Part shown: positions 11,040 through 38,008 of the stretch, piece after piece
How the letters are laid out: every line of letters starts with the position of its first letter
Numbering within the stretch: the first letter of the stretch is position 1
Notes under the pieces: model-generated
What the model was told of the DNA's origin: nothing
Databases searched by the model: none
Seen by the model: the letters and a program-made list of their open reading frames with translations, nothing else
Translations under genes and position numbers: made by a program
Assembly (NCBI GenBank): GCA_018817425.1
Contig: JAHITX010000102.1
Coordinates: 1 to 38,542, forward strand
Origin: Pseudomonadota bacterium
GTDB taxonomy: Bacteria > Desulfobacterota > Desulfobacteria > Desulfobacterales > RPRI01
DNA: 38,542 nucleotides
Direction: 5' to 3'

Positions 11040-11049
11040 TAAATTTTGT

Positions 11050-11185: not shown

Positions 11186-11202
11186 ATAGAGGATTTTGAA
11201 TT

Positions 11203-13752: not shown

Positions 13753-13777
13753 TATAGTAAAATAAAAGGATCGCATA

Positions 13778-15298: not shown

Positions 15299-15322
15299 TA
15301 AATACTCCGATTGGAAGTAACG

Positions 15323-17338
15323 ATGACTAATAAAGAAAGATTTTATATAAATGACCCTTTCCTGAAACTTTACAAGGATGCTATTGAAACCCGGATAGCA
15401 AATATAATTAAAAAAGAAACTCTTCTTGCACAAGGCAAGAGCAATCTTGCCAACTTTGCTTCCGGCCATAATTACTTCGGCCTCCATTTTTCCAACAACC
15501 AGTGGATATTCAGAGAGTGGGCACCTAACGCCGAATCTGTATTTTTGATCGGAGAGATTACAAGCTGGCAGGAAAATGATAAATATTCTTTAAACAGAAT
15601 CACCAACACAGGTGTGTGGGAAATAGTACTTGCGGAAGAAGCCCTGAAGCATAAAGATCTATACAGATTAAGGCTCCACTGGCCAGGTGGTAAAGGAGAC
15701 AGAGTCCCATCTTATGCAAACCGTGTAGTTCAGGATCCGCATACTCTTATTTTTAATGCGCAAGTCTGGCATCCTTCATATCCATTTAAATGGCGTTTTC
15801 CCGATTTTAAATGTAGCAAAGATGCTCCTTTGATTTATGAAGCTCATATAGGTATGGCTCAGGAAGAAGATAAGATAGGTACTTATAAAGAATTTACAGA
15901 AAAAATACTGCCCCGTATCGTATCTTCCGGTTATAATATGATACAGCTTATGGCAATTCAGGAGCACCCGTATTACGGATCTTTCGGATATCAGGTTTCT
16001 AATTTTTTTGCACCTTCATCACGCTTTGGAACTCCTGAAGATTTAAAAGAACTAATCGATGCTGCTCATTTTGCAGGCATAGCTGTTATTATGGATATAA
16101 TTCATTCCCATGCTGTTTCCAATGAAGTCGAGGGCATAAGCAGATTTGACGGAACATTATACCAGTATTTTCATGATGGGCCACGTGGAATACATAGCGC
16201 ATGGGATTCCAGATGTTTCGATTATAATAAAAAGGAAGTTCTCAATTTTCTGCTCTCAAATTGCAGATACTGGTTGGAAGAGTTTCATTTTGACGGATTC
16301 AGATTTGATGGTATCACAAGCATGTTATATTTACACCACGGCCTGGGAAAACCATTTACTTCATATAATGACTATTTTTGTGATGATGTTGATGAAGATG
16401 CTCTGACCTATCTTGCGCTTGCAAACAAATTGATACACGATATCAGACCGGATGCAATTACTATAGCAGAAGATATAAGCGGGATGCCCGGACTCGCAGC
16501 TCCCTTATCGGAAGGCGGCTTCGGCTTTGATTACCGCTTTTCTATGGGAATACCAGATTTCTGGATACAGCTTGTTAAGGATTCTTATGATGAAGACTGG
16601 CCTACCGGTCATCTTTGGTATGAACTTAACAACAGGCGCATAGAAGAAAAATCAATAAGCTATTGCGAATCGCATGATCAGGCTCTTGTAGGAGATCAAT
16701 CCCTTATTTTCAGACTGATAGGCACCGATATGTACGATCACATGGCTATTAACGATTATAATTTCAGGGTTGACAGAGGAATTGCCTTACATAAATTAAT
16801 AAGACTGATAACTTTAACTACAGCAGGAAACGGATACTTAAACTTCATGGGAAATGAATTCGGACATCCCGAATGGATAGACTTTCCCAGGCAAGGCAAC
16901 AACTGGTCATATCATTATGCCAGGCGCCAATGGCATCTTGTTGATGACCCTTTATTAAAATATCATTTTCTTGCAAACTATGACCGCGACATGATTGCTC
17001 TGGCAAAGCAATTTCATATTTTAGAATCTTCTTCTCCGATGATGTTATACGAAAATACTTCTGACAAGATTATTGCCTTCAGGCGTGCCGGACTTTTGTT
17101 TGTTTTCAATTTTCACCCTACATCATCTTATACAAATTACTGCTTTGATGCACCTCCGGGAACCTATCAAATGATTTTTGACAGCGATTCGCCCGAATAT
17201 GGAGGTCATAACCGGCTCATTCCTGATCATGATCATAAAACAATTCGCGATCAAGCAAAGGACTCAAAGCGTCAGTTTATCAGCCTTTATCTTCCTACAC
17301 GTACGGGAATAGTTTTAAAATATATGGAAGAAGCTTAG
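15323..17338 (+). CDS. glgB: 1,4-alpha-glucan branching enzyme, eukaryote-like GH13_8 type
   Basis: A 671-residue branching enzyme. An N-terminal CBM48 segment (IFREWAPNAESVFLIGE) is followed by a GH13 barrel with MDIIHSHAV, GFRFDGITSMLYLHHG (nucleophile Asp), ITIAEDISGMPG (acid/base Glu) and ESHDQALVGD, and a C-terminal beta domain. The TSMLYLHHG and AEDISGMPG forms are those of eukaryotic GBE1 and related bacterial GH13_8 enzymes, not of the usual GlgB (GH13_9). The start at 15323 (ATG, with GGAAG 6 bases upstream) is preferred over the in-frame TTG at 15311. It is the last gene of the glycogen block. Confidence 0.9.
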   Translation: MTNKERFYINDPFLKLYKDAIETRIANIIKKETLLAQGKSNLANFASGHNYFGLHFSNNQWIFREWAPNAESVFLIGEITSWQENDKYSLNRITNTGVWEIVLAEEALKHKDLYRLRLHWPGGKGDRVPSYANRVVQDPHTLIFNAQVWHPSYPFKWRFPDFKCSKDAPLIYEAHIGMAQEEDKIGTYKEFTEKILPRIVSSGYNMIQLMAIQEHPYYGSFGYQVSNFFAPSSRFGTPEDLKELIDAAHFAGIAVIMDIIHSHAVSNEVEGISRFDGTLYQYFHDGPRGIHSAWDSRCFDYNKKEVLNFLLSNCRYWLEEFHFDGFRFDGITSMLYLHHGLGKPFTSYNDYFCDDVDEDALTYLALANKLIHDIRPDAITIAEDISGMPGLAAPLSEGGFGFDYRFSMGIPDFWIQLVKDSYDEDWPTGHLWYELNNRRIEEKSISYCESHDQALVGDQSLIFRLIGTDMYDHMAINDYNFRVDRGIALHKLIRLITLTTAGNGYLNFMGNEFGHPEWIDFPRQGNNWSYHYARRQWHLVDDPLLKYHFLANYDRDMIALAKQFHILESSSPMMLYENTSDKIIAFRRAGLLFVFNFHPTSSYTNYCFDAPPGTYQMIFDSDSPEYGGHNRLIPDHDHKTIRDQAKDSKRQFISLYLPTRTGIVLKYMEEA

Positions 17339-23202: not shown

Positions 23203-23880
23203 ATGACTATTTTAGAAAAAAAAGATCTTATCCAGAAAGTTATAAATGTGTTTGAAACTGGAACACCGGAAGGTAAATATGACATGCTTGTAATCTATGA
23301 TGATGGCGTTAATGATTCTTATCAGATTACATTTGGGCGAAGCCAGACAACAGAACAGGGCAATCTTGGCAAGCTTGTTGATATGTACATAGAAAACGGT
23401 GGTGCATATGCTGATGATTTTGTACCATACTTAGAAAAAATTGGTATCGAACCACTTGCCGATGATGAAAAGTTTAAAAATCTGCTCCTGGATGCTGCCC
23501 GAAAAGACCAAATTATGCGTGATACTCAGGACAGCTTTTTTGATAAACACTACTGGGAACCTGCTGTAGAGTGGGCACAAAGAAACGGGTTTAAATTGCC
23601 GCTAAGCATGCTTGTAATTTATGATTCCTATATTCATTCGGGACGCATCCCGATGTTTTTGCGAAAACGGTTTATGGAGTATCCTCCTTCAGGTGGCGGG
23701 GATGAAAAAAAATGGACCGGTTCTTATGTGGAAACACGTCACCAATGGCTAAAATATCATGAAAAAAAAATCCTTCGCAAAACTATCTATCGCACACAAA
23801 CCTTTTTAAACGAAATACAAAAGAATAACTGGGAATTAAATGATCTTCCGATAAATGCCAATGGAGTAAATGTAGGGTAG
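23203..23880 (+). CDS. GH46 chitosanase-like glycoside hydrolase
   Basis: A 225-residue protein resembling glycoside hydrolase family 46. E18 in NVFETG and an Asp of YDDG (D33/D34) sit where the chitosanase catalytic Glu and Asp are expected. The following QITFGRSQTTEQGNL segment is typical of bacterial relatives annotated as chitosanase. No signal peptide is visible, so the product looks cytoplasmic unless exported by another route. AAGGAGA lies 7 bases before the ATG. It follows cstA closely and ends at a long palindrome. The substrate may be chitosan or a related amino-sugar polymer; this is family-based inference. Confidence 0.6.
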   Translation: MTILEKKDLIQKVINVFETGTPEGKYDMLVIYDDGVNDSYQITFGRSQTTEQGNLGKLVDMYIENGGAYADDFVPYLEKIGIEPLADDEKFKNLLLDAARKDQIMRDTQDSFFDKHYWEPAVEWAQRNGFKLPLSMLVIYDSYIHSGRIPMFLRKRFMEYPPSGGGDEKKWTGSYVETRHQWLKYHEKKILRKTIYRTQTFLNEIQKNNWELNDLPINANGVNVG

Positions 23881-24031: not shown

Positions 24032-25249
24032 TTATTTTTTCAGCCTTTTTTCACCACAGTATATAAAAAGCCCGTTATCTTTTGAAAGACATGCTATTGT
24101 CATATCAAGTTCTTTGGCAAGTTTTACCGCAAGTTCTGTGGGGCGGGAAAATGCAAGTATTATCGCAATTTTTGCTCTTGCGGCCTTTTGAACAAGCTCA
24201 AAACTTATTCTTGATGAAAGTACCAGAAAAGCTGCGTCCGAAAGCTTTTTATCAAGAAACAATTTTCCTATAGCCTTATCTAAACCATTATGGCGACCAA
24301 CATCTTCCGAAACACTTAACAGTTGGTAGTCTTTGTTATAAATTGCAGAAGCATGGGAAGCATGCGTTTCTTTTTTTAAGGGCTGGTGATCGGAAAGAGA
24401 CAAAAGACAATTTGCTGCTTTATTTATATCTACTACTAAACTATCTGCCATAGGCTTAATGTCCTGGTAAAGGTCCTGTATAAGCTCCTTGCCGCATAAG
24501 CCACAACTTGTCTGGCTCACAAAACCGCGTCTTTCAAGAAGATCGGATACCAGTTCTTTTCTTGCAGCAGTGAGTGTAGCAGTAACAACATTGGTGTCGG
24601 TTCCGTCACAAAAAGCAAGAGATGCAAAATCTTCAGGGGCATCTACTATTCCTTCTCCAAGACAAAAACCTGCGACATGAGGTATTTCCTCACCTGGAGT
24701 CCGCATTACTACTGAATAGGGCTTTCCTTGTATGCGGATGGATAAAGGTTCTTCTCCGATAAGATTCTGGCTTACTGTCACAAAACTTTCTTCTTTCCAG
24801 TGAATAACTTTTGTGTGGGAAGAAATGATTTGTATTTTATCGCCACATCGTATTATGCCACCTTCCAATACTTTTGCAAAAATACCTTCTCTCGGCATTA
24901 TACAATCTCCTGCCTGATAAAAAATAGCGCATTTTTTCTTGCACTCTTTTCCTATCTGAGTGACTTCCACAAGAGCTTTTGCGCCAAGCCTTAACTTTGA
25001 ACCGACCGGCATATTTTTCCAGTCGATTCCCGTTGTAGCAATGTTTTCCGCAAAATCGCCAAATGTTACAGTAAGCCCTCTGTTTTTGGCATCCTCAATA
25101 CTTTCCGCTGCAAGAAAACTGACCTGCCTGTGCCATTTGCCTGCATGGGCATCACCATCTAAGCCATGGTCTGCGATCAGTTCGGCTTCCGTTATACAGG
25201 TTTTTCTTGTACCTTTTTTCCTGCTTGATGCTATTGAGACAATTTCCAT
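24032..25249 (-). CDS. MOSC domain-FdhD fusion protein
   Basis: A 405-residue fusion. Residues 1-145 form a MOSC domain (DHGLDGDAHAGKWHRQVSFL, then conserved cysteines in GKECKKKCAIFYQAGDC). Residues ~150-405 are FdhD, the sulfurtransferase that sulfurates molybdopterin for formate dehydrogenase. The FdhD part has the cysteine pair C249 and C252 (CGLCG), EDVGRHNGLDKAIG and LSSRISFELVQKAARA. MOSC domains occur in sulfur-carrying proteins acting on molybdenum cofactor, so the fusion may join two sulfur-handling steps. The ATG at 25249 is used; an in-frame GTG at 25261 would add four residues. No formate dehydrogenase gene is in the window. Confidence 0.88.
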   Translation of the reverse strand: MEIVSIASSRKKGTRKTCITEAELIADHGLDGDAHAGKWHRQVSFLAAESIEDAKNRGLTVTFGDFAENIATTGIDWKNMPVGSKLRLGAKALVEVTQIGKECKKKCAIFYQAGDCIMPREGIFAKVLEGGIIRCGDKIQIISSHTKVIHWKEESFVTVSQNLIGEEPLSIRIQGKPYSVVMRTPGEEIPHVAGFCLGEGIVDAPEDFASLAFCDGTDTNVVTATLTAARKELVSDLLERRGFVSQTSCGLCGKELIQDLYQDIKPMADSLVVDINKAANCLLSLSDHQPLKKETHASHASAIYNKDYQLLSVSEDVGRHNGLDKAIGKLFLDKKLSDAAFLVLSSRISFELVQKAARAKIAIILAFSRPTELAVKLAKELDMTIACLSKDNGLFIYCGEKRLKK

Positions 25250-25322
25250 TTTATTACCCACAGCAAATTAATGTTAACAATTCTAATAGATTCGAAAAAA
25301 GCTGAAAACTCACGGTTTTGTC

Positions 25323-25873: not shown

Positions 25874-27853
25874 TCAGCCTTGCATCAATATATTTTCATT
25901 GCCCCAAAATCGCAGCATCATCACTGTAATGTCGTCGGTTTGTGGAGCCTGGCCTGCAAAGGATAGAACACTGCTAATAACCACATCCACCACCTGGGAC
26001 GACGGCAGTGGCTCCATACTCTTAAAAAGTTCAAGCAGGCGCTCTTCGGAGTATAGATTTTCCTTTTCATCCATAGCCTCGGTGATGCCGTCCGAATAGA
26101 TAAACAAGCCCTCTCCGGCATCTAACCGGATTTTTTTCATTTCGTATTCAATTCCGTCCATAGCGCCAAGCAAAACCCCGTCTGTTCCTTCCAGAAAGAC
26201 AGCTTCTCCGTTTTTTTGCAGCAACACAGGCGGATTATGTCCGCCGTTTGCATACCATAGCTCTCCGGTACGGATATTTAATATACCGCAAAACAGTGTT
26301 ACGAACATGTTGGCTTCATTGTCCCGGCTTAGTTGGGAATTTACTTCCTGCAAAATTAGATCCGGGCTCAGTCCCTTTGCAGCAGTCATTTTAATAAGGG
26401 TCATGGTTACAGCCATGAACAGGGATGCCGGAACACCTTTGCCGGATACATCTCCCAAAACAAAGCAGATGCGCTCATCATCAATTCTGTAGAAGTCATA
26501 AAGATCTCCACCCACTTCCTTTGCCGGTTTGATAAATGCGTAAAGATCAAACTCCGGAATATCCGGAAAGGGATTAAAATCTTTGGGCAGAAATCCCATC
26601 TGAATATCGCGGGCTATATTGAGCTCGCTTTCGAAACTCTTTTTGGCAGCAGTGGCTTCCAGCAAATCCTGAATGTGAATTTTAAGAGAATCTTTCATGA
26701 AATTAAAAGATTCGGCCAGAAGCCCCACCTCTCCTCCGCTTTTTTGGTTCGGCACTACTATTTCCAGATTGCCAGTAGCCATTTCACGGGCTACAACGGA
26801 CAGGGTTCTCAAAGGTCGGGTTATGGTTTTTGAAACCAGCCAAACCACCAGAAACAGTACTATCAATCCGCAAACCGCCAGATAGATTCCCTTTTTATTA
26901 ATGTCGTCCAGGTCGGCCATCAGTTCGTCTTTTGGAAAAAAAATACCCAAAGACCATTTGCTGAATTTAACCGGAGCAAAGTAGAGAAAACCGGCTTTTT
27001 TTAAATCATAGCCGGTAAAAGAAACAAAGCCTGATTCCCCTGCAATCATTCGCCTTCCGATATTTCTAAGTTTTGCATCACCCCTTGCCTCGGCTATACT
27101 GAAAATTGTCTCGTTCATCACCCAGCGCTTTTCCGGATGAGCAACAAAAGACCCGTTTCGAGAGAGGATGAATCCATAGCCGGTTTTAAGAATCCGTATT
27201 TCCGAAACAAATTTTTTAAGCCATTCCAGAGAGATATCGGCCGTGATTACACCGGCAAAAAGACGTTTTCCCTCTTTCTTTTTGAAAAAAGGGCACGAAA
27301 ATGTTGCCATGAGAATGTCGCCTCCACCTTCGTCGAAATATGGCTCGCTCCAGTATTCCTGAAGGGTTTCCCTTGGAATTTGATACCAGTCCTGATAGAA
27401 ATAGTGATAATTTTTTCCGTCAAGATATGTATGTTCAAGCCCTTTTTCCTTGTGGAACAAATAAGGGCAAAAATACAGTCTGTCTGATTTGAAGGCATAG
27501 GGTTCAAAGGCAATGGCAGCACCGAAGATTTCGGGGTTCTTGCTTAGTGTTTTACCAAGAACATCTATCATTTCTGTTTCGCTTAGATCAAGCGTTTCGA
27601 TTGCCGCAGTGAGATTGACCGGCAGTTTTTGCACTGGTGCAAGCACGGATTCGATACGGTGGGCAGTCTGTTTGGCAATATTTTGCGCATTATTCTCCAC
27701 ATTCCTAAGAATCGCTTCCCTTGAAAAGAAGTATCCGAATGTAAAAACAACCATAAATATCAGGGCGGCTCCTGCCAGGATCGGCGCCCCCAGCCTGAAG
27801 GCAATGCCTCTATTCTTTATCATGGCAAAAACACTTTCTGGAAAATAATTCAT
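25874..27853 (-). CDS. Cache-HAMP SpoIIE-type protein phosphatase (RsbU-like)
   Basis: A 659-residue membrane phosphatase. TM1 is at about 20-43, followed by a periplasmic Cache-like sensor domain (about 45-310), TM2 at about 323-341, HAMP at about 342-395, and a cytoplasmic PP2C/SpoIIE domain (about 430-650). Metal-binding motifs are GGDLYDFY (about 449), GDVSGKGVPA (467), YSDGITEA (586) and TDDITVM (639). It should dephosphorylate a STAS protein when its sensor is engaged, and the STAS gene is in the same operon. The first 44 bases overlap the binding-protein gene; ATG 27823 is an alternative start, and neither start has a clear ribosome site. It is the last gene of the operon. Confidence 0.88.
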   Translation of the reverse strand: MNYFPESVFAMIKNRGIAFRLGAPILAGAALIFMVVFTFGYFFSREAILRNVENNAQNIAKQTAHRIESVLAPVQKLPVNLTAAIETLDLSETEMIDVLGKTLSKNPEIFGAAIAFEPYAFKSDRLYFCPYLFHKEKGLEHTYLDGKNYHYFYQDWYQIPRETLQEYWSEPYFDEGGGDILMATFSCPFFKKKEGKRLFAGVITADISLEWLKKFVSEIRILKTGYGFILSRNGSFVAHPEKRWVMNETIFSIAEARGDAKLRNIGRRMIAGESGFVSFTGYDLKKAGFLYFAPVKFSKWSLGIFFPKDELMADLDDINKKGIYLAVCGLIVLFLVVWLVSKTITRPLRTLSVVAREMATGNLEIVVPNQKSGGEVGLLAESFNFMKDSLKIHIQDLLEATAAKKSFESELNIARDIQMGFLPKDFNPFPDIPEFDLYAFIKPAKEVGGDLYDFYRIDDERICFVLGDVSGKGVPASLFMAVTMTLIKMTAAKGLSPDLILQEVNSQLSRDNEANMFVTLFCGILNIRTGELWYANGGHNPPVLLQKNGEAVFLEGTDGVLLGAMDGIEYEMKKIRLDAGEGLFIYSDGITEAMDEKENLYSEERLLELFKSMEPLPSSQVVDVVISSVLSFAGQAPQTDDITVMMLRFWGNENILMQG

Positions 27854-28814
27854 AAGGTGGTACAGCCCGAATCAGCCCGTTTGAAACCAGAATATCACCA
27901 ACTTTCCGGTAATCATCAACTTTAAGCTCCCACATTCGCTCACCTTTCGGCCCGGATACCGTTAAATCACGCATCCGATCAAGCATCCATCGCTGATGCA
28001 CCCTGTTTGCCGGAATATGGGCCGCTTCCATGATCGGGATCATAATATCTATCGCCTCTTCGGGATGTGCGAAGGCGTATTGCCATCCCTCTACAGATGC
28101 GTTTACAAAGGCACAGGCAGCTTCAGGATCATTCTCGAAAGTCTCCTTACGAAGATAGATACCGTCTTCCGGGAAATTAAGATTCACGTCATCAAAGAAA
28201 AAAAGCGTTATCTCATCCGGGTCAAGTCCTGAATTGATCAGTGTATGATACTCATTGTACCACATAAGCGAAGAAACCTGGACTCCGTCGCGAAGAAAGA
28301 GATTGATCGGACTATTGGTTGTCACTACCTGCACCTTAAGGTCAAACTTATCGAAAAAAGCCCTGGGCTGGATTTGAAAATCGGATGGCCAAAGTGCGAT
28401 TTTTTTTCCGTCCATATCTGCCGGGCTATTAATACCCGAACTCTTTTTGGCGGCAAGTACCAATGCCGAGCGCTGAATAATCTGTCCCACATTGACCACT
28501 TCCACACTCTGGTCAGCCAGCTGAAGGGCCGAAGAAAGCCAGAGCGTTACAATATCTGCTTTTTTTTCTTTTATGTATGCTGCAGGTGAATGGTCGGGAC
28601 CACCCGGAATGATGGTCAGATCAATGCCGTGATGGCGATAATAACCCTTGTTAAGAGCCACATAATATCCGGCAAACTGCGCCTGTGGCAGCCATTGGGG
28701 AAGAAAAGTCAGCTTTTTCAAACCCGGTGATTCTGTTGTTGCCCACAAGGAACCGCATAGAATCATCCAAACGGTAATTGTAAGCCAGAATACGTTTCGT
28801 TGTGTCCGAATCAT
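27810..28814 (-). CDS. NMT1/THI5-type periplasmic substrate-binding protein
   Basis: A 334-residue exported binding protein. A signal peptide spans about residues 1-26 (ending SLWA). Typical NMT1/THI5 motifs follow: FLPQWLPQAQFAGYYVALNK, GIDLTIIPGGP and PADMDGKKIALWP. Relatives bind pyrimidine, sulfonate or similar small ligands for ABC importers, but no permease or ATPase gene is present. Placed between an RsbW-like kinase and a Cache-domain phosphatase, it may act as a ligand-binding sensor partner rather than an uptake component (inference). It overlaps the kinase gene by 4 bases and the phosphatase gene by 44. Confidence 0.85.
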   Translation of the reverse strand: MIRTQRNVFWLTITVWMILCGSLWATTESPGLKKLTFLPQWLPQAQFAGYYVALNKGYYRHHGIDLTIIPGGPDHSPAAYIKEKKADIVTLWLSSALQLADQSVEVVNVGQIIQRSALVLAAKKSSGINSPADMDGKKIALWPSDFQIQPRAFFDKFDLKVQVVTTNSPINLFLRDGVQVSSLMWYNEYHTLINSGLDPDEITLFFFDDVNLNFPEDGIYLRKETFENDPEAACAFVNASVEGWQYAFAHPEEAIDIMIPIMEAAHIPANRVHQRWMLDRMRDLTVSGPKGERMWELKVDDYRKVGDILVSNGLIRAVPPYELFSRKCFCHDKE

Positions 28815-29269
28815 TCTTTCATCTCCTTAGGATGCAAGAAGATCACCAGTTCCAAAAGATTCCTGTTGCCTTCCCGCCGGTAGCGGACATCGTCCATCAG
28901 GTTCCGCACAAGATAAATTCCCAACCCGCCTATTTTGCGCGATGAAACGTCGGAAGACAGATCAGGGGCATCGGCTGCAGTTATGTCGAATTCAATCCCT
29001 TCATCTTCAATGCAAACAACCAGGCAATCTTCTTCTCTCCGGCAGCCAATTCGCACTATACCTTCCTTATCCGGATAGGCATAGTTGATGATGTTGACTA
29101 TACTTTCTTCTATCGCAAGTTCCAGATCATGGCATCTGTCTTCATCAACGAAAAGGGCACGCGCTGCGGCAAGCACCGGAGTAATAAAGTGCGGCAGATT
29201 CTCGACCCGGGACGGTAATGAAACGGAAACCGGGACTACTTGTGTCTTAGAGATTTTCAAGTGCTGCAT
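28811..29269 (-). CDS. RsbW/SpoIIAB-like anti-sigma serine kinase
   Basis: A GHKL-ATPase protein of about 152 residues from ATG 29269 (156 from an in-frame TTG at 29281). In the 156-residue numbering, the N box ELAIEESIVNIINYAY is at 54-69, the G1 box EDEGIEFD at 92-99 and the G2 box KIGGLGIYLVRN at 116-127. Such kinases phosphorylate a STAS protein and, when free of it, sequester a sigma factor or other target. All ATP-binding boxes look intact. It overlaps the STAS gene upstream, consistent with translational coupling. No sigma factor gene is in the window, so its target is unknown. Confidence 0.88.
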   Translation of the reverse strand: MQHLKISKTQVVPVSVSLPSRVENLPHFITPVLAAARALFVDEDRCHDLELAIEESIVNIINYAYPDKEGIVRIGCRREEDCLVVCIEDEGIEFDITAADAPDLSSDVSSRKIGGLGIYLVRNLMDDVRYRREGNRNLLELVIFLHPKEMKE

Positions 29270-29582
29270 CCGTGGTATCAAAATGCTTGAAGAGGGAAAA
29301 AAACCCTGATATCTGGAATACCTTTTTAACCGGTCCCTGGGTTGCAGCCAACCGGATGTCTCCCCCTTTAGACTTCATAATTTTAGCCGTGCTCAATAAA
29401 ACACGCAAGCCTGCGCTGCTGATATATTCCAATCCTGAAAGATCGAACACCAGCCACTTCTCTTCCTGGCTCAATGCTTCGACAAGTTTCATCTCAAACA
29501 CAGAAGCGTTACCCGTATCCACCCTTCCATGCACTGATGCAACCAGGGCGTTTCCTTTCATCTGAAAGTCAATATCCATCAT
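29247..29582 (-). CDS. STAS-domain anti-anti-sigma factor (RsbV/SpoIIAA-like)
   Basis: A 111-residue single-domain STAS protein. The phosphorylation motif is DLSGLEYISSAGLRVLL at 47-63; S56 aligns with the serine phosphorylated in SpoIIAA. It should be phosphorylated by the kinase encoded next and dephosphorylated by the SpoIIE-type phosphatase at the operon's end. AAGGAG lies 4 bases before the first of two adjacent ATGs. It overlaps the GNAT gene by 14 bases. Confidence 0.9.
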   Translation of the reverse strand: MMDIDFQMKGNALVASVHGRVDTGNASVFEMKLVEALSQEEKWLVFDLSGLEYISSAGLRVLLSTAKIMKSKGGDIRLAATQGPVKKVFQISGFFSLFKHFDTTDAALENL

Positions 29583-30618
29583 GTTTCTCCTTAATCGAGC
29601 GTTCCCAGTCGCTTCGGACCATTTTTAGAATTTGTCCGTATCGATCCGTATGAGTGTATATTCCATCCCAGTCGGGATGTTTGCGTATTTTTTGCATTAA
29701 TAGTCCGTCTGTATCAAACCAGCGCGGAAGTATGCCACCAAGAAAATAGCCGCGCAGCCGCAATATTTCAACAGCCTTGCCGATACATGTGTCGGCAAAA
29801 TTGAGCCAGATCTGAATCACCAGTACATTTTTTTCCTGCAATTCCTTTTCCAGTGCTTCTATCCGTGCCAAAAAATCCCGGCCCACAGCATGGATTGCGA
29901 TACGGGCCACGCCTGCAAAGTCAAATATCAGGAGTTTCAGATCGGTATCGCTTTCGGTACATATTTCATTTTCCGCTATGAGAAAATCTCTCTCGTCGTC
30001 CAAACCTTCGTAGAAAAATGGCAGCTCTTTTGCATAAACACGGGGTAAATAGACCGTATGGGGTTTTTTTCGGTAGGTTTTGAAATTTAGAAATGCGGCT
30101 ACCCGACCACTTGCGCTGGCCTCTTTCACATAAGCTTCAGCCGGCATAAGGTCCACCTCCAATGAACTGGGAGGAAACCCCAAGTTTCCCATCAGCTTCT
30201 GGCTGAATGGATGATTGCAGACCGGTTCACCAAACGCGGCATCCACCCCCGGCAGTGTGGCGGCAAGATCGCGACTATGGATCGCAAGCTGAGTAAATAT
30301 TTTTTTCCCGCCACGATAGGCCGTATGAACCAAACCGGCTCCATATTCATAGGTTCCCGAATGCGGTGCGCTGTTAAACAATGCAGTGTGGCCGATAATA
30401 TCTCCCCGCCGGGTCCTGGCTACACTCGAAATGATATGCTGGGCCTCGTTTTCCCTGATTAATAGTTCTGCTTCCAAGTAGGTTCGTACCGGATATCCGC
30501 TGCCATAAACCGAGTAAAAGAGCCTGGCAACCCCTTCGGCATCGCCGGGTTGAAAACGGCATATTCCGTAGGACTGTCCGGGTTCAATATCAGGTGTTGT
30601 TATCGTTTCGGCTGTCAT
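29569..30618 (-). CDS. GNAT-family acetyltransferase with an extra C-terminal domain
   Basis: A 349-residue protein. The N-terminal part (about 18-165) resembles a GNAT acyltransferase, with the coenzyme A-binding region around VHTAYRGGKKIFTQLA and FGEPVCNHPFSQKLMGNLGF. The C-terminal ~150 residues look like the end of the first protein of the operon (36671-37987): both have an ATGF- or LRGYF-like element, then IPR or LPRW, and an acidic end. AAGGAG lies 7 bases before the ATG. The substrate is unknown. Confidence 0.7.
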   Translation of the reverse strand: MTAETITTPDIEPGQSYGICRFQPGDAEGVARLFYSVYGSGYPVRTYLEAELLIRENEAQHIISSVARTRRGDIIGHTALFNSAPHSGTYEYGAGLVHTAYRGGKKIFTQLAIHSRDLAATLPGVDAAFGEPVCNHPFSQKLMGNLGFPPSSLEVDLMPAEAYVKEASASGRVAAFLNFKTYRKKPHTVYLPRVYAKELPFFYEGLDDERDFLIAENEICTESDTDLKLLIFDFAGVARIAIHAVGRDFLARIEALEKELQEKNVLVIQIWLNFADTCIGKAVEILRLRGYFLGGILPRWFDTDGLLMQKIRKHPDWDGIYTHTDRYGQILKMVRSDWERSIKEKHDGY

Positions 30619-31834
30619 TTTTAGCTCCTTTCGTAAACATCAAAACTGCTGCCAGAAGACTTGTTCCGGCGCAAAAAAGGTATAGCTCCCTGTACCCCCA
30701 ACCGGCAAGCAAGGGTGCGCCTATCAATGGACCAAAAAAAAAGCCAGCCTGAAACATCTGCAGGCCAAGATTTATATTAAAAGCCCTGAACCGCGGTTTG
30801 GATACATCAAACATCAATCCGTTGAACACCGGCATGGCTACACCCCACCCCAACCCAAAGATCAGACCCAGAGAAAAGAAAATCCATTTATCCGGAACAT
30901 AGGCCAGCAGGACATAGGCCAAACACAATCCCACCAGACTCCAGAAGGCCAGACGTCCTTTATTTATCCGGTCGAAAAAAGAACCGGCAACAACACGAAT
31001 TCCGATTTCTCCCACTGTGGAAAAAGTCAAAAATATCCCGACATAGGCAATTTGAATAGATTTGCCATATCCGTCCAGGAAAAAAAAGACCATGGCATGC
31101 CCGCAATATAAAAGCAGCATGGCTGCCAGAATTCGAAGCACATGGATATTCGTCAGATTTTCCATGACTTCTTTAACGGATAGTGCGGATGAATCTTCAT
31201 TTGTTGATTTTTTTTGTTCCTTATCTGCTACAGCAAATACCAGAGGAAACATTAGAAGCGTCAAAGCGGCAAACAACAACAAAATCCGGTTAAACCCCCC
31301 CAGGCCGGCATCCAGAAAAGGAAGAAGTGGGGGGATCAGGGTATTCGGCAAAAGGGTGGCCACTGCCAGATATCCGAAAAACTGTGCGCTTTTTTCCTTA
31401 GGAATAACATCCACAACCAGGGTCATAAGGGCCGTTCCCAAAACGGCAAAGGCAATCCCGTGAAAAATACGCACCAGAAGCATACTCCAATAATCGACGG
31501 CCACAGTATAAGCGGCCAGGGAGCAGGCCGCAAGGACGGTGCCGATAAAAAGAAGTTTTTGGGCGTTTCCGGAATGGAAAAATGGACTGATCAACGGACG
31601 GACAATCAGGGATACGGCGGCTAAAGCACCTATAAGTAAGCCATAATCCGCGGGATCAACGGGCAAGGTGTGAAGATGATCAACAAAGCCGAAAAAAACG
31701 GATATGTTCGCATAAGCTAAAAAGGCTGCTGTCATCAGACAAATAAATTTTCGGGACAAAAGCAGCTCATGAATGGATATATCCGGGTTATCCGGACTTT
31801 TTGCTGTCATGGGTAAAGTTTTCGGTTTAGTCAA
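30590..31834 (-). CDS. Major facilitator superfamily transporter
   Basis: A 414-residue membrane protein with about 12 hydrophobic helices and the MFS fold (for example GIAFAVLGTALMTLVVDVIP in the first half and GLGWGVAMPVFNGLMFDV in the second). It most resembles drug or metabolite efflux permeases. The start is placed at a TTG (31834) because GGGGAGGA lies 6 bases upstream; the ATG at 31810 has no ribosome site, and the longer frame start at 31861 has none either. It lies between the molybdo-hydroxylase and GNAT genes and overlaps the latter by 29 bases, so its cargo is likely the operon's substrate or product. Confidence 0.8.
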   Translation of the reverse strand: MTKPKTLPMTAKSPDNPDISIHELLLSRKFICLMTAAFLAYANISVFFGFVDHLHTLPVDPADYGLLIGALAAVSLIVRPLISPFFHSGNAQKLLFIGTVLAACSLAAYTVAVDYWSMLLVRIFHGIAFAVLGTALMTLVVDVIPKEKSAQFFGYLAVATLLPNTLIPPLLPFLDAGLGGFNRILLLFAALTLLMFPLVFAVADKEQKKSTNEDSSALSVKEVMENLTNIHVLRILAAMLLLYCGHAMVFFFLDGYGKSIQIAYVGIFLTFSTVGEIGIRVVAGSFFDRINKGRLAFWSLVGLCLAYVLLAYVPDKWIFFSLGLIFGLGWGVAMPVFNGLMFDVSKPRFRAFNINLGLQMFQAGFFFGPLIGAPLLAGWGYRELYLFCAGTSLLAAVLMFTKGAKNDSRNDNNT

Positions 31835-31868
31835 CTTCCGTCCTCCCCAAACTACCGGCAATATTAGA

Positions 31869-33248
31869 TTATGATGATGCGACTACTTCCGGCAGACGCA
31901 GCAGCAGGTTACCTGCAACCAGCCTGCGGTAATCGGCTCCGGCTCTTATGTCGGTGATGGGGAAAAGCCGTTCCCGAACCAGAGGTATCAGTGCTTTCAT
32001 ATGCTGTTTGTCCAGGGGTTGTCCGACCAGAACTGATTCTATCTCAGGCAACCGTATAACAGTCGGACCCACACTTCCCCAGGCAAAACGAGCTGATTCG
32101 ATCCTGCCGGATTCCAAAAACCCGATCACTGCCGCCAGACTTGCCACAGCACAAGCCATAGCATCTCTGAGCCCTACTTTTTCAAAATACTGGAAAGTGA
32201 TTTCACTGGGTCTGGAGATAATCACGGCAGAAAGAATTTCACCCGTCTCCAAAACAGTTTGTCCCGGTCCCCGGATAAAGGCATCCAGAGGCAGACAGCG
32301 CAGGCCTTGTGCCGACAGCAACTCAACTTTTGCGCCCAGCACATACAAAGGCGGCAATGTGTCTCCGGCCGGAGAGGCGGTCATTATATTTCCGCCAATA
32401 GTTGCAACATGACGTATATGGGGGGAACCCAGTGTTTTTAATGCCTGAGTCAAAACAGGAAACATACTTTTGATAACAGGGTTTTCCAGCATGATCTCAT
32501 GAGTAGTGGCTGCGCCTATGCGAACCCCATCTGCGGTTTCATAAACGCCGCAAAGCTCATCAATGCGTTCAAGACCGATTATGGTTTCCGGGTCAATACG
32601 CCGGCTTCGCATCCATACAAAAAGATCGGTTCCGCCTCCAAAAACTTTCGCTCCCGGATATTCGGCAAAAATTTGCCACAGTTCGTTTAAAGATTGCGGA
32701 AGAAAAATATGGCGTTTATTTCTTCCTTTTAAACCAACTGAAACATCTGAAAGAATATCTTCCGGCATTATGGAGGTATGCCGGTTGTTTAGAGGTTTTT
32801 CTTCAACGCTTTCAACAGCATCAATAATCTTTTTATATCCGGTACAGCGGCATAGATTTCCGCTGATGGCCCGGGCAATTTCCTTGCGCCCGGGGTGGGG
32901 ATGGCGCGACAGAAGATCCACCGTTGTCAGAACCATGCCGGGCGTACAGAATCCGCATTGCACAGCCCCTTTTTCAACAAAGGATGCCTGAACCGGATGC
33001 AGATGTCCTTGCTGTGCCAAACCCTCTATAGTGATTACCCTGCGGCCTGCCAGTTGGGCCGCAAGCATCAGACAGGACAACCGACTGCGCCCGTCCACCA
33101 GAATAGTACATGCCCCGCATTCACCGGTCCCGCAGCCTTCCTTGGTTCCTGTCAGGCCCATATCCTCCCGCAAAAGGTCCACCACTCTCAAGTCACCGGG
33201 TACATCCAGGCAGATTGCTTTGCCGTTTAACTCGAATTCGATTTTCAT
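31869..33248 (-). CDS. Xanthine dehydrogenase-family iron-sulfur and FAD subunit
   Basis: A 459-residue electron-transfer subunit. The [2Fe-2S] ferredoxin-like domain uses C39, C44, C47 and C59, and the second [2Fe-2S] domain C98, C101, C133 and C135 (CGFCTPGM and CRCTGY). An FAD-binding domain (about 175-350) has VFGGGTDLFVW and TIGGNIMTASPAGD, and a CO-dehydrogenase-flavoprotein C-terminal domain follows. Together with the next gene it forms a molybdo-hydroxylase. AGGAGAGAG-like purines precede the ATG and the start overlaps the large subunit's stop by 4 bases. The substrate is undetermined. Confidence 0.92.
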   Translation of the reverse strand: MKIEFELNGKAICLDVPGDLRVVDLLREDMGLTGTKEGCGTGECGACTILVDGRSRLSCLMLAAQLAGRRVITIEGLAQQGHLHPVQASFVEKGAVQCGFCTPGMVLTTVDLLSRHPHPGRKEIARAISGNLCRCTGYKKIIDAVESVEEKPLNNRHTSIMPEDILSDVSVGLKGRNKRHIFLPQSLNELWQIFAEYPGAKVFGGGTDLFVWMRSRRIDPETIIGLERIDELCGVYETADGVRIGAATTHEIMLENPVIKSMFPVLTQALKTLGSPHIRHVATIGGNIMTASPAGDTLPPLYVLGAKVELLSAQGLRCLPLDAFIRGPGQTVLETGEILSAVIISRPSEITFQYFEKVGLRDAMACAVASLAAVIGFLESGRIESARFAWGSVGPTVIRLPEIESVLVGQPLDKQHMKALIPLVRERLFPITDIRAGADYRRLVAGNLLLRLPEVVASS

Positions 33249-35551
33249 CTCTCTCCGTTTTTTGACATGGCCGCAAGAACTCGCTCAGCGGTTAAAGGAA
33301 ATCGAAATAGCCTCAGGCCGCAGGCATCGTATACTGCATTGGCAACAGCCGGTGCAGGTGCATCGATACCGATTTCTCCGGCCCCTTTCAGGCCGAATGG
33401 GCCTGTGTGCTCAGCCACGGGAACCGCAATGGTTTCCATCTCCGGCATGTCCGACGCTGTTGGGATGATATAGGTTGTCAGATCAGTTGTCTTCATGCGA
33501 CCGTTTTCGGAAATAACATCCTCCCGGAGAGCGTATCCCAGACCCTGGACCACTGCCCCTTCCTGCTGGCCCTCAAAGAGACAGGGATTAATTACCTGTC
33601 CGCAGTCAGTTACAGTAAGATAATCGGTTACCAAAACACGTCCGGTCAGTTCATCCACATCCACACGGGCCAGGTGCACCGAATAGGAAAAAATTGCGTG
33701 GGGAAAGCCGTGCAACTGCAAGTTAGCATCAGTTGTGGGCCTTTCTTTTGAAACCGGTGCCCTGAAATGCCGGGTAATAAAACGCTCAGCAGCGTTTAGC
33801 AAACGGCTCATCCGGGCCAGCGGCAAATCCCTTCCCGTAGGCAAATGCCGGATGTTGCCCGGGATCAGCACTAATTCCGATACATCCGTAATCATAAATA
33901 AATCTGAAGCTTTAGCTATCAATCGCTTTTTCAGATCTTCAGCTGCGGCTACCAGTGCATTACCGAATGTATAGGTAGTGCGGCTGGCCGAAGCCGAACC
34001 GCCCGGAAAGGTCCGCGACGTATCCGGAAGTACAAGTTCCATGTTCTCCGGAGGCTGGGAAAGAATGTCTCCTGCCATATGAAGGTAGCTGGCCGTATTT
34101 CCCTGGCCCATGTCCACCACACCGGCAAAAATTCTAAACCGGCCTTCACCGGTAAGCTCGATTCCGGCCGTTGCAGAGTCAGGCACAACCGGACCATAGC
34201 CCATACCATGTGACACACATGCAATACCGGTACCCCTTTTATGATATGAACTTGCCGATGCCTGCCAGTCGACACGCTCTGTCCACAAGGGATAGGACTG
34301 GACCATTTTCAGACATTGTGTAAGGCCGATGGATCCCTGGCGCGTTGCACCGGCGGGACACCGGTCTCCGCGTACAAGGGCATTATGCATACGCAACTTC
34401 AGCGGGGATATGTTCAGACGACAAGCCATCATATCCATCACGGATTCCATAGCGGCAGCAACCTGGGGTACGCCAAAACCCCGAAAGGCCCCGGAAACGG
34501 GATTGTTCGTATATACAGCCCACACTTGAAGATGGGTGTTTGCTATCCGGTATGGACCTCCGGCATGCTCAAGGCCAAGAGCGGCAACCACTCCGCCCAG
34601 ATGATCATATGGACCGGTGTCAAAATATATCCTGGCAGATAAAGCTTTCAGTGTTCCGTCCCTTAAAGCCCCCAGTTTGTAATAGAGTTTAGCCGGATGA
34701 CGCTTGGCGCCTGCCAGAAAACTTTCCTCACGGCTCCACCACATCTTGACCGGTCTTCCCGGACATTGCAGGGCAGCCAGTGCCAATAAACTCTGGACGG
34801 TGATCCCGTCCTTTCCGCCGAAAGCTCCTCCGCAGTATGGTGCCATAATCCGAATGCTATCTATCTCCAGCCCCACGGCTTCAGCAACTTCAAAGCGATC
34901 CCGAAAAGGGGTCTGGGTAGAAACGGTCATTTCAAGACTGCCGTCTTCTCCTGCAATTGCCCATCCGTTTTCCGTCTCCAGAAAAACATGGGCCTGGCGG
35001 GGCAGATCGAAACAGGCTTCAACTGTTTCATCACAGCCGGCAAAAGCATCTTCGCCTTCCCCGACAATAATTTTTGTTGTAAACAAAGCGTTTCCGCCCG
35101 GATGTTCCGGATGAATCAGCGGCGCGTTTTCTTTTAAAGCCTCCTCAGGATCAAAAACTGCATCAAGGGCCTCATAATCAACGACAATACTCTCTATAGC
35201 AGATTCAAGAGCAGCTTTATTTTCTGCAACCACCAACGCTACCGGGTCCCCGCAATGACGCACCCGGTCATCGGCCAGCACAGGCTGGTCTTTTCGGATA
35301 ACTCCCTGGCGGTTACTGCCTCTTACGTCTGCAGCAGTTAAAACGGCCTTAACACCGGAAATTTTAAGCGCTGCCTGTATGTTTATGTTTTGAATCCGGG
35401 CATGGGCAATTCCGGCTCGTTTTACGCCTGCCCACAAGAAATCAGAGCCGTAGTTATCCACAGCGAACTTCTCAGCACCGGTAACCTTGGTAATGGCATC
35501 CGGCCTGAACATAGACTCGCCTATTTGAAAAACCCGGTTATTATCGGTCAT
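33245..35551 (-). CDS. Xanthine dehydrogenase-family molybdopterin-binding subunit
   Basis: A 768-residue catalytic subunit. Conserved elements are GGAFGGKDG at 241-249, AFRGFGVPQ with R358, DMGQGNTASY, and GAGEIG with catalytic base E726. In bovine xanthine dehydrogenase the residue after the GGK motif is the substrate-binding Glu802; here it is D248, while the arginine matching Arg880 (R358) is kept. Hydroxylation of an N-heterocycle or aldehyde, other than a standard xanthine dehydrogenase activity, is therefore likely (inference). AGGTGG precedes the ATG. It overlaps the aminotransferase gene by 11 bases. Confidence 0.92.
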   Translation of the reverse strand: MTDNNRVFQIGESMFRPDAITKVTGAEKFAVDNYGSDFLWAGVKRAGIAHARIQNINIQAALKISGVKAVLTAADVRGSNRQGVIRKDQPVLADDRVRHCGDPVALVVAENKAALESAIESIVVDYEALDAVFDPEEALKENAPLIHPEHPGGNALFTTKIIVGEGEDAFAGCDETVEACFDLPRQAHVFLETENGWAIAGEDGSLEMTVSTQTPFRDRFEVAEAVGLEIDSIRIMAPYCGGAFGGKDGITVQSLLALAALQCPGRPVKMWWSREESFLAGAKRHPAKLYYKLGALRDGTLKALSARIYFDTGPYDHLGGVVAALGLEHAGGPYRIANTHLQVWAVYTNNPVSGAFRGFGVPQVAAAMESVMDMMACRLNISPLKLRMHNALVRGDRCPAGATRQGSIGLTQCLKMVQSYPLWTERVDWQASASSYHKRGTGIACVSHGMGYGPVVPDSATAGIELTGEGRFRIFAGVVDMGQGNTASYLHMAGDILSQPPENMELVLPDTSRTFPGGSASASRTTYTFGNALVAAAEDLKKRLIAKASDLFMITDVSELVLIPGNIRHLPTGRDLPLARMSRLLNAAERFITRHFRAPVSKERPTTDANLQLHGFPHAIFSYSVHLARVDVDELTGRVLVTDYLTVTDCGQVINPCLFEGQQEGAVVQGLGYALREDVISENGRMKTTDLTTYIIPTASDMPEMETIAVPVAEHTGPFGLKGAGEIGIDAPAPAVANAVYDACGLRLFRFPLTAERVLAAMSKNGER

Positions 35552-36674
35552 GCTTCACCACCTCAAAAAGCGCCTCCATGAGGGCGTTCATGGCCTCTGG
35601 CAACGCAATCGTAATACGGATCCAGTTGGGAAAGCGAAATCCGGCCATACTGCGTACCATTACACCGTGTGTCATCAGTTTCCGGTATGCCAGGCTATCG
35701 CTCATGGGAAGTCTCACCATCAGAAAATTACCCTCACCCGAGACATAGGTCAGTCCAAGATTATCAAGCTCATGGGTAAGCAAAGCCTTGGCATTTCGAA
35801 CCAAAGTCCGCGTTGCAAGGACATGCTCTTTATCTTCTATTGCAACATATGCCGCTTCCTGAGCCAGACCGTTTACCGAGTAAACGACACAAGTTCGCCG
35901 AATTATATCCACAACCTCCCGATTTCCGGCCAGATACCCTATGCGAAGCCCGGCCAGTGCATACATTTTCGAAAAGGTTCTGAAGATAACAAGATTGGGG
36001 TATTCGGCAATAAGGCGCATACCGTCCGGAAAGTCCGCTTGCTCCACAAATTCGCAATATGCCTCGTCCACAACCACGATTTGTCTGCCGGCCACCCGAT
36101 CCAGAAACCTGCGAAGCCGCTCTTCCGACCAGTAAGTTCCGGTGGGGTTATTGGGATTGCAAACAAAAAATATCTTGGTTCGCTCATCCATAAGGCTTAA
36201 CATACCCTCATCATCAAAGGTAAAATCTTTTAACGGTACAAGCCGGGCCTCAAAACCGGAAAAGCTCGCCACCCATTCGTAGACCGCAAAGGTTTTGTCG
36301 GCAGTGATGATATTGTCTCCTTCCTGACAAAAAGCCTTGATGACAAAGCCGATAACCTCGTTGGCGCCGTTTCCTACAAGAATCTGATCCGGATGAAGGC
36401 CGAAAAGATCACCAAGCTTACATCGCAGATGGTAGGCATCACCGCTGGGATAAACCGATGCCCTGAGGGAAGGATAGGCTTCAATGATTCTGCGGGCGGC
36501 CGGCGGCGGCCCCAGAGGGTTTTCATTATTATTAAGGCGAAAAAGCCGGGAGCATCCTGCCATTTTCATCAACATATCATCGGGCTTGCTGGGGATATAG
36601 GCTTCAAAGCGTTTTATATGGTCCGGCACCAGACGTTCAATGTGCGTATTTTTCATCAAGTCGCAATGCTTCAT
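35541..36674 (-). CDS. HisC-like pyridoxal-phosphate aminotransferase
   Basis: A 377-residue fold-type I aminotransferase of the histidinol-phosphate aminotransferase family. It has LNNNENPLGPP near 48, NPNNPTG at 174-179, D203 in VVVDEAY, and the PLP lysine K236 in TFSKMYALAGLRIGY. No other histidine gene is near, so a role outside histidine synthesis is likely, for example transamination of a substrate or product of the molybdo-hydroxylase. GGAAGG lies 6 bases before the ATG, which overlaps the upstream gene's stop by 4 bases. Annotation as hisC would be unsafe without enzymology. Confidence 0.85.
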   Translation of the reverse strand: MKHCDLMKNTHIERLVPDHIKRFEAYIPSKPDDMLMKMAGCSRLFRLNNNENPLGPPPAARRIIEAYPSLRASVYPSGDAYHLRCKLGDLFGLHPDQILVGNGANEVIGFVIKAFCQEGDNIITADKTFAVYEWVASFSGFEARLVPLKDFTFDDEGMLSLMDERTKIFFVCNPNNPTGTYWSEERLRRFLDRVAGRQIVVVDEAYCEFVEQADFPDGMRLIAEYPNLVIFRTFSKMYALAGLRIGYLAGNREVVDIIRRTCVVYSVNGLAQEAAYVAIEDKEHVLATRTLVRNAKALLTHELDNLGLTYVSGEGNFLMVRLPMSDSLAYRKLMTHGVMVRSMAGFRFPNWIRITIALPEAMNALMEALFEVVKHDR

Positions 36675-37987
36675 GATTCGCCTTCCAGCTCAAAAATTAC
36701 AAGGTCTGCCTTGCCGGCATAAGGGATAATCATGCGGGGTATAAACCCGAGCTTAAGCAACCCCGGGGTGAAACCGGTCTGCCATGAAAGCCCTAAATCC
36801 ATTTCGAAAAAGATAGCACTCATCGATTCCTGCCGCAGTAATTTAACATGATCCGCCAGGATCTTCTCATAATCCTTTCCGTACCATATCGGTCTTAATG
36901 TTGTAACAGCAAGGTGGCGATCTGTTTCGGCACTTAAAACGGAAAAAGGTTCTTCTGCCTCGCCATCTGATAAGACTGTCTGAATTTCACGGAGAAAGAC
37001 CAAACGATGGTATTCGCTTTGAAGAAATTCGACCAGATCGGGATGAGCCCATACCACTGAGCCGGAATCTTCATGCATTAATCTGAAAAGAGCGGTTAAG
37101 GGTGCGCCACCATCCGGCCCTAATGCATTCAGGATACCCAGAATCTCAAGGTATCCTTCAGGAAGCTGCGGTGTCGGCATTCGGCTGATAAGGGCTAATG
37201 CCGGGGTTTTAGCAACGTTTCCAATGCAAGTTTCCATAAGTTCCCGGGCTATTTCCGGATGACTGTTTGTGTTAAAAATGTAAGGGCCGAAAACTTCGAT
37301 GGTCTTGGAACCTTCCCATTTCCAGGCCAAACCGCCACCAATCTCACCGGTAGGCCCGTTGGCCAGGAGGATATGGTAATCTCCGGCAGCAGCCATATCA
37401 ACAACTTTTCCCGGATATCTTAAATCCACAGGGAAAAGTTTTGCCGGATAGAATTGGTTTACCAGGCGGACAAACCATTTGATTTGTGCCGAATCCGGTG
37501 TCTGAATACTGAAATTTGTCAGGGCTTTGGGGGTCTGGATATCAGTCTCTTCTTTGATCTCGGGATAGCGCAATAATTTGACAAGGGTCAACTCCAGATT
37601 ACCATCAGCCGGACGGGAAATTCGAAAACGATCGGTCATTCTGGAGGCAATTAATAGTCCCATCTGATCGAGGCAAGCCTCGTCTTCGGCACTCACCCTG
37701 GCAGTCATATTGAAGGCATGCAACTGTATATTTTGAACCGGAAGTGAAAACTCGGTTTTGATAAAATGACTCCCGGCCGAGCATTGAATTACAACATCCT
37801 GTCCGCTGATACCAATACCGGTCAGATAGGCAATAACTTCTTCTGCAGCCAAAGATAACTCTTGCGCTGCTTCCTCATCCAGACCCAGTCCCTTCGCCGC
37901 AAGTTCAACGAAGGACACAGCCAGGGGAATAAAAGCACTTTCAACAGGGATTTTTACAAGAAGCTTTTTGTCAGGTTTTCTCAACAT
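36671..37987 (-). CDS. Degenerate RsbW-like domain fused to an acyltransferase-like region
   Basis: A 438-residue protein, first gene of the operon. Residues ~1-130 align with RsbW-type ATPases, but the N-box asparagine is replaced (AAEEVIAY where the operon's kinase has IEESIVNI), no G1 DxG is visible, and the G2 box reads QMGLLIA. ATP binding is therefore doubtful. Residues ~150-438 resemble GNAT-like folds (ILLANGPTGEIGGGLAWKWE) and end like the GNAT protein at 29569. The ATG at 37987 is chosen because GGAGG lies 5 bases upstream; the frame extends to a GTG at 37993. It may bind the STAS protein or a similar partner without kinase activity (inference). Confidence 0.65.
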   Translation of the reverse strand: MLRKPDKKLLVKIPVESAFIPLAVSFVELAAKGLGLDEEAAQELSLAAEEVIAYLTGIGISGQDVVIQCSAGSHFIKTEFSLPVQNIQLHAFNMTARVSAEDEACLDQMGLLIASRMTDRFRISRPADGNLELTLVKLLRYPEIKEETDIQTPKALTNFSIQTPDSAQIKWFVRLVNQFYPAKLFPVDLRYPGKVVDMAAAGDYHILLANGPTGEIGGGLAWKWEGSKTIEVFGPYIFNTNSHPEIARELMETCIGNVAKTPALALISRMPTPQLPEGYLEILGILNALGPDGGAPLTALFRLMHEDSGSVVWAHPDLVEFLQSEYHRLVFLREIQTVLSDGEAEEPFSVLSAETDRHLAVTTLRPIWYGKDYEKILADHVKLLRQESMSAIFFEMDLGLSWQTGFTPGLLKLGFIPRMIIPYAGKADLVIFELEGES

Positions 37988-38008
37988 CAACACCTCCGAT
38001 ATCTATTC

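Follow-up and report, generated by a model that had tools for sequence, protein, structure and literature searches.

A conserved gene cluster of Desulfobacterota brings together an aminotransferase, a molybdenum hydroxylase, a transporter and partner-switch genes

The window analysed here, a stretch of 38,542 nucleotides, is the whole of contig JAHITX010000102.1 (G000:C102) from a Pseudomonadota bacterium of the GTDB lineage Desulfobacterota (assembly GCA_018817425.1). On its minus strand ten open reading frames (ORFs) lie in a row from position 37993 to 25874; the genes are named A (first transcribed) to J and combine a HisC-like aminotransferase, a molybdenum hydroxylase, a transporter and GNAT-like proteins with the components of a partner switch (Table 1). 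Relative loci are designated by L and genomes by G followed by a number, G000 being the window's own genome. Across these loci the core of the cluster is gene A followed by the HisC-like aminotransferase B, with F, a transporter and a molybdenum hydroxylase around them, the signalling genes being optional. The reading that we favour, to which we allow slightly less than an even chance, is that of a conserved Desulfobacterota cluster which makes or modifies a small molecule and exports it, the partner switch most likely controlling the cluster's own enzymes.

Results

Eight of the nine junctions overlap by 4-44 bases (A/B 4, B/C 11, C/D 4, E/F 29, F/G 14, G/H 35, H/I 4 and I/J 44), the sole exception being D/E with a 7-base gap. 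This agrees with a preliminary description of this DNA, made from the sequence alone, which had reported ten minus-strand genes overlapping at most junctions. E and H were given mechanical TTG starts, so translation may in truth begin further inside these frames. The families named in that description for B, C, D, E, G, H, I and J were borne out by Pfam and NCBIfam, with the restriction that "xanthine dehydrogenase" (XDH) holds for C and D at the level of the superfamily only; A proved to be not simply GNAT-like, an RsbW-like domain coming first. The number of promoter and terminator candidates was about that expected from shuffled sequence (25 vs 17.6, standard deviation (sd) 4.7; 20 vs 16.9, sd 5.3) and is given no weight as evidence. 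Searches of PADLOC-DB with seven of the ten proteins (all but C, D and E) gave 0 matches, and membership in known anti-phage defence systems was rejected for these seven.

Table 1 Genes A to J of the operon, with their assignments and the basis of each
Gene	Position	Strand	Assignment	Basis
A	36671..37993	minus	RsbW-like domain (model residues ~7-142), GNAT-like domain (~159-312) and C-terminal part common to F, without assigned fold	fold comparison, hhalign, N-box alignment
A	36671..37993	minus	Tyr56 in place of the N-box Asn; candidate receiver of the switch	
B	35541..36674	minus	HisC-like pyridoxal phosphate (PLP) aminotransferase, module-specific second copy	Pfam, NCBIfam, tree, alignment
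C	33245..35551	minus	molybdopterin subunit of a molybdenum hydroxylase (XDH/AOR superfamily), catalytic Glu present	Pfam, NCBIfam
D	31869..33248	minus	2Fe-2S and FAD subunit of the enzyme of C	Pfam, NCBIfam
E	30590..31861	minus	MFS transporter, probable exporter	Pfam, NCBIfam, MATE swaps in relatives
F	29569..30618	minus	GNAT-like acyltransferase of a family without Pfam model; GNAT domain ~15-189, C-terminal half without assigned fold	model fold comparison
G	29247..29582	minus	STAS antagonist (RsbV/SpoIIAA type), phosphorylatable Ser present	Pfam, NCBIfam, alignment
H	28811..29281	minus	RsbW/SpoIIAB-type serine kinase, N-box intact	Pfam, NCBIfam, alignment
I	27810..28814	minus	NMT1/THI5-type periplasmic binding protein, operon without ABC partners	Pfam
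J	25874..27853	minus	dCache-HAMP-SpoIIE (PP2C) sensor phosphatase, metal-binding Asp present	Pfam, alignment

A matches no Pfam or NCBIfam family above threshold, HATPase_c_2 being found at 17.1 bits against a cut-off of 27.4, and F has no match in either collection. The AlphaFold models of A and F have a mean predicted local distance difference test score (pLDDT) of 88.7 and 89.8, respectively, and were compared with known folds as whole models. The N-terminal domain of the A model has an RsbW-like fold (8ih8_D, Z 15.5, root-mean-square deviation (rmsd) 2.3 over 121 residues; 6m37_C, Z 15.3), while the second domain has a GNAT fold (4mbu_A, Z 15.0, rmsd 2.4 over 145 residues). The preliminary description overlooked the RsbW-like, switch-type domain, which is predicted from the model. 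Residues 157-435 of A align to F (hhalign probability 95.6, 14% identity). F itself was modelled with a GNAT fold (2j8m_A, Z 12.8, rmsd 3.0 over 161 residues) that covers residues 15-189 only, the matches barely extending into the C-terminal half of the protein. A weak structural match of F to the histidine acetyltransferase 9emd (Z 11.5, rmsd 7.6) was not used. The Asn of the N-box is required by RsbW-type kinases. It is absent from A in all 54 ungapped rows of a 57-row alignment (near-copies included), where the column holds Tyr (32), His (14), Ser (3), Ala (3), Val (1), Phe (1) or a gap (3).

Relatives of F fused to an RsbW domain are encoded at L012:9285-10808, L013:4275-5939, L014:9724-11409, L015:9353-10888 and L059:15486-17069. 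All five match HATPase_c_2 (those of L013 and L014 barely at the cut-off) and those of L012, L013 and L015 match Acetyltransf_1; L015 and L059 have the N-box Asn, which L012, L013 and L014 lack. In addition, the F gene of L010 overlaps a gene encoding a STAS domain. The fusions provide independent evidence that the GNAT family of F works with partner switches, and the switch-type domain of A suggests where the chain acts. Genes of the F family also occur four in tandem in two Desulfarculus-labelled metagenome-assembled genomes (MAGs), at L099 (starts 1239, 2494, 3543, 4514) and L101 (starts 7567, 8664, 9716, 10657).

The components of the signalling chain carry the residues expected of working proteins. 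J combines SpoIIE (175.5 bits), dCache_1 (61.4) and HAMP (47.3) domains according to Pfam, and its metal-binding Asp columns are kept in 26-27 of 27 rows. G scores 74.1 bits on the Pfam STAS model, passes the cut-off of TIGR00377 and has its Ser in 29/29 rows, and H scores 90.6 bits on HATPase_c_2 with the N-box Asn in 24/24 rows. I is followed directly by J for every one of the 13 I genes counted. Given this placement, I is probably a ligand-binding partner of the Cache sensor of J. The earlier proposal that the operon senses an external small molecule fits this pair of binding protein and Cache phosphatase, for a ligand that is itself putative.

A single-sequence search of the named genome contigs with A gave no match, and an F profile was used afterwards. 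The scan of these contigs with that profile yielded 156 relatives. From them 79 loci were retained, mostly from Desulfobacterota-type MAGs and a few from isolates; the culturable Desulfobacter vibrioformis DSM 8776 is one of the carriers (L089). Among 291 genomes of the order, a search with A was positive in 24. Any match of the A profile (E up to 0.001) was found in 36 and a strong one (E below 1e-40) in 24, while the F profile matched 49 genomes, 27 of them strongly (E below 1e-100). Strong F is present in 24/24 of the genomes with strong A; G115, G197 and G238, which are 69, 89 and 67% complete, have strong F without strong A. The weaker profile matches include open frames of 500-615 amino acids, some of which are RsbW-GNAT fusions. 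Of 395 genomes sampled from the phylum, 63 have any match and 47 a strong A (E below 1e-80).

The full ten-gene order of the window recurs in the gene maps of L045, L067, L073 and L081, with D split into two ORFs in the last three, as in most relatives, and with one extra gene in L078 (a second F) and L080 (an inserted GDSL-family gene). After merging of four near-duplicate loci, 49 non-redundant A loci were counted, without correction of the co-occurrence counts for phylogeny. A and B are adjacent in 46; the exceptions are L063, at a contig edge, L111, where the two are map neighbours and the called ORFs overlap too far, and L096, where they are apart. F is present in 46, a count biased upward because the set mixes A-seeded and F-seeded loci, an MFS or MATE gene in 44, C together with D in 33 and a deaminase-family gene in three. 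At least three further A loci (L057, L060, L123) were left out, A having apparently lost its place to an overlapping B ORF during gene calling; A lies at B in all three. Among 20 A-seeded loci, hand-picked from the 47 strong A matches of the phylum sample, B adjoins A in 20, C/D are found in 14, a transporter in 13, F in 11, any of G/H/J in nine and all three in five; at least seven of these loci are contigs of the first set too, and several end at contig edges. The block is no chance assembly, as its genes and their order are found again in other genomes. MAG contigs make up many of the loci, and the labels of L135 (Rhodoferax), L136 (Nitrospiraceae) and L110 (Acidobacteria) may be binning errors. 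At L135 the module includes STAS, RsbW and SpoIIE genes, as a result of either transfer or mis-binning.

Any of G, H and J is found in 23 of the 49 loci and all three in 15, while none lies within the examined stretch in the other 26; hence the metabolic core does not depend on having a chain linked to it. The single module of the preliminary description, for which gene-neighbourhood co-occurrence had been suggested as a check, thus survives in part: metabolic and signalling genes share a locus in 23 cases and the full order recurs, and more than half of the stretches have the metabolic genes on their own. The signalling genes might be neighbours of the metabolic genes by chance or through shared transfer, with no working link between them. 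The 26 stretches and the acquired look of the operon (see below) speak for such an explanation. G/H/J, however, lie upstream of A-B in L046, L070 and L075, downstream in L045, L067, L073 and L081 and on both sides in L091, and A as well as the fused relatives of F themselves bear RsbW domains; we consider this explanation improbable.

B scores 302.5 bits on TIGR01141 (HisC), above the cut-off of 276.55, like 15 of the module copies in 18 carrier genomes (the copies in G268, G236 and G053 narrowly miss it). In 17 of the 18 carriers another HisC-like copy elsewhere outscores the module copy, G268 being the exception in which the module copy is best; in the host genome of the window the higher-scoring HisC lies at G000:C33 (366 bits). 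Plain histidine synthesis was not adopted as the role of B, a better-scoring HisC being encoded elsewhere in the genome. The PLP Lys and two Arg, the latter with a substrate role, are invariant in 54/54 rows. Although B thus retains the hallmarks of HisC, it differs in being a second copy that stands apart from other HisC-like proteins: 26 positions distinguish module B from 19 of them (one paralogue left out), and 55 module copies (the window included, the others >50% identical to B and >330 amino acids long) separate from 20 with an IQ-TREE bootstrap of 91, under the program's mark of 95, and an SH-aLRT of 96, with a long-branch warning. In view of that warning, of the sub-95 bootstrap and of the weak FastTree support for the group (0.202), B is set apart and not a proven clade.

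C and D share the domain layout of the XDH/AOR superfamily (MoCoBD_1/2, hammerhead, 2Fe-2S and FAD domains in Pfam), and the catalytic Glu of C is present in all 43 ungapped rows of 44. Both differ from characterized members in scoring below the NCBIfam equivalog cut-offs (C, 518.5 bits vs 783.65 for PucD; D, 340.8 vs 467 for XdhA), hence "XDH" names the superfamily only and a plain xanthine dehydrogenase was not adopted. The best-scoring solved relatives are the aldehyde oxidoreductase 1sij, the 4-hydroxybenzoyl-CoA reductase 1rm6 and the nicotinate dehydrogenase 3hrd. XdhC-like genes occur in seven loci (six when L011 and L061, which overlap, are taken as one), always with C/D, and MocA-like genes in nine (eight if these two are merged), L119 being the only stretch of them without C/D; Pfam was run on the L061 copies. 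Such neighbours lend support to a predicted active molybdenum enzyme. Just downstream of J, at 24032-25261 on the minus strand of the window, lies a MOSC and FdhD/NarQ domain fusion that may serve the maturation of molybdenum enzymes. In L053, L054 and L055 an adenosine-deaminase-family gene, above the cut-off of TIGR01430, takes the place of C/D; one further gene of this family lies elsewhere in the locus of L170. The swap hints at a purine- or imidazole-like scaffold, which, as only three loci show it, is kept for the more specific form of the model alone (see Discussion).

In L070, L075, L082 and L180 a MATE-family gene occupies the slot of the MFS gene, assigned by Pfam MatE on the L075 copy and by BLAST similarity in the others; L180 has the order A-B-C-D-D-MATE-F-G-H-I. 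MATE proteins are exporters. As MATE-family genes take the MFS slot, E is probably an exporter too, which strengthens the earlier suggestion of a compound that is made, modified and exported, with the chemistry still conjectural. A flavin amine oxidase gene follows F in two MATE-type loci (L072:3324-4403 and L075:11018-12115), and similar-looking genes occur in L070 and L077. The same set of enzymes could instead form a catabolic module, in which a compound would be imported by the transporter and degraded by the hydroxylase and the aminotransferase. Degradation and uptake are common settings for molybdenum hydroxylases and NMT1 binding proteins, and some loci have a gene of the benzoate-CoA-ligase family nearby (L044). 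Set against this are the MATE-family genes, the ten genes being without an ABC permease or ATPase by Pfam, and a GNAT protein that suits modification more than breakdown, which makes a catabolic module quite unlikely.

The operon has a guanine-plus-cytosine (GC) content of 48.3% vs 38.3% in bases 1-25873 of the window, the genome background being 38.4% on average (sd 4.4; 107 two-kilobase windows from six stretches). The contrast is not clean, however, as one of the six stretches (L163) reaches 44.2%, and the highest genome window, at 50.9%, falls within the range of the operon (44.4-53.9%). A and F are absent from all nine congeners searched (63-98% complete). The operon was likely acquired by transfer, though this is not proven. 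Elsewhere in the window, glycogen genes occupy 6747-17338 on the plus strand (a debranching enzyme with GDE_N/GDE_C, a phosphorylase with DUF3417, a starch-synthase-like transferase and a branching-enzyme-like protein), and a glycosyl hydrolase family 46 gene lies at 23203-23880 (plus strand), beside a CstA gene.

Discussion

Partner switches are best known for the control of sigma factors, the phosphatase, antagonist and kinase sets RsbU/RsbV/RsbW of Bacillus and SpoIIE/SpoIIAA/SpoIIAB being the familiar examples. J, G and H are the same three proteins with key residues intact. They differ from these sets in that J has a dCache sensor domain and a binding-protein partner gene, and in that SigB/F/G-type sigma factors (TIGR02980) were found above the cut-off in none of ten genomes, a cut-off so strict that only 1 of 14 control genomes passed it. 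Nor do the ten operon proteins contain a sigma factor domain by Pfam, and the preliminary description was right in this respect. SiaA of Pseudomonas aeruginosa, a phosphatase of another such system, has a Cache/HAMP layout. SiaC activates the diguanylate cyclase SiaD (PMC8457831); SiaB phosphorylates SiaC, and SiaA reverses this (PMC7647112). SiaABCD, the nearest precedent for an enzyme output, resembles the chain described here in its PP2C phosphatase, kinase and antagonist-like protein, and has an enzyme, SiaD, as output instead of a sigma factor; the phosphosite of SiaC is Thr68, whereas that of G is a Ser. Further differences are that no GGDEF domain is found by Pfam in the ten operon proteins, the proposed output being a pseudo-RsbW/GNAT protein beside an aminotransferase, that J scores only 67 bits on the SiaA model NF038263 (cut-off 700), and that the chain of A-J is embedded in a metabolic operon. 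No paper on the A-J gene set was found in open-licence PMC, which is weak evidence of absence, and the main text of a review of STAS-only proteins (PMC8256260), searched for passages, does not contain the terms acetyltransferase, GNAT or diguanylate.

Our best reading is that the partner switch would act on an enzyme-linked pseudo-RsbW protein and not on a sigma factor, much like SiaC on SiaD. We propose that I and the Cache domain of J would sense a ligand, upon which J would dephosphorylate the STAS protein G; dephosphorylated G would leave the kinase H and bind A, whose RsbW-like domain is without the kinase Asn. A would then turn on, or release, the reactions of B and F (transamination and N-acylation), C/D would oxidise the substrate and E would export the product. 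Gene content, linkage, the key residues of G, H, J, B and C, the architecture of A, the RsbW-GNAT fusions and the MATE swaps are the sequence basis of this model; what we infer is every contact between the proteins, which way control runs, and both substrate and product. A more specific form of it is tentative and, on balance, somewhat unlikely: the dephosphorylated STAS protein would bind the dead RsbW domain of GNAT-fused A, locked to B, so that an extracellular ligand would switch on the formation of an N-acylated heterocyclic amino compound and its export, with a purine- or imidazole-like scaffold as the deaminase swap hints.

Several observations weigh against control of the cluster's own enzymes. 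Only 2 of 55 A rows have the usual Q/RxxGxG/A acyl-CoA loop, so A may be no enzyme; together with the N-box Asn that is never present, this makes A look like a non-kinase, perhaps non-enzyme, predicted binding protein. Of 118 F rows, just 6 carry the strict loop and 52 the looser R/QxxG/S. The signalling genes, as noted, are missing from 26 of the 49 stretches. Finally, sub-threshold matches to the sigma-70 family are present in all ten genomes searched, G000 having three such SigBFG matches in open frames of 617, 260 and 310 amino acids. These last, along with the apparently full competence of G, H and J as judged from their key residues, would suit an ordinary partner switch, in which H sequesters a sigma or other transcription factor encoded elsewhere that G and J set free, the metabolic genes being its regulon and the RsbW-like domain of A a relic or a metabolite-binding domain. 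Apart from the sigma factor searches described above, however, what speaks against an ordinary switch is that A keeps its RsbW-like domain in loci without linked G/H/J and that the RsbW-GNAT fusions stand alone; we regard it as unlikely.

Were the partner switch to control the cluster's own enzymes, a family of RsbW-like pseudokinase-GNAT proteins beside an aminotransferase would add a type of output to those of partner switches, and small purified proteins would suffice to test it. The cluster would also point to a conserved small molecule of sulfate reducers and syntrophs, an ecologically large group, and would supply at once the genes for it, their regulator and a probable exporter. If the more specific form were true, that molecule would be a secreted metabolite or signal, widespread among Desulfobacterota and so far undescribed, and the RsbW-GNAT fusions would be a new output class.

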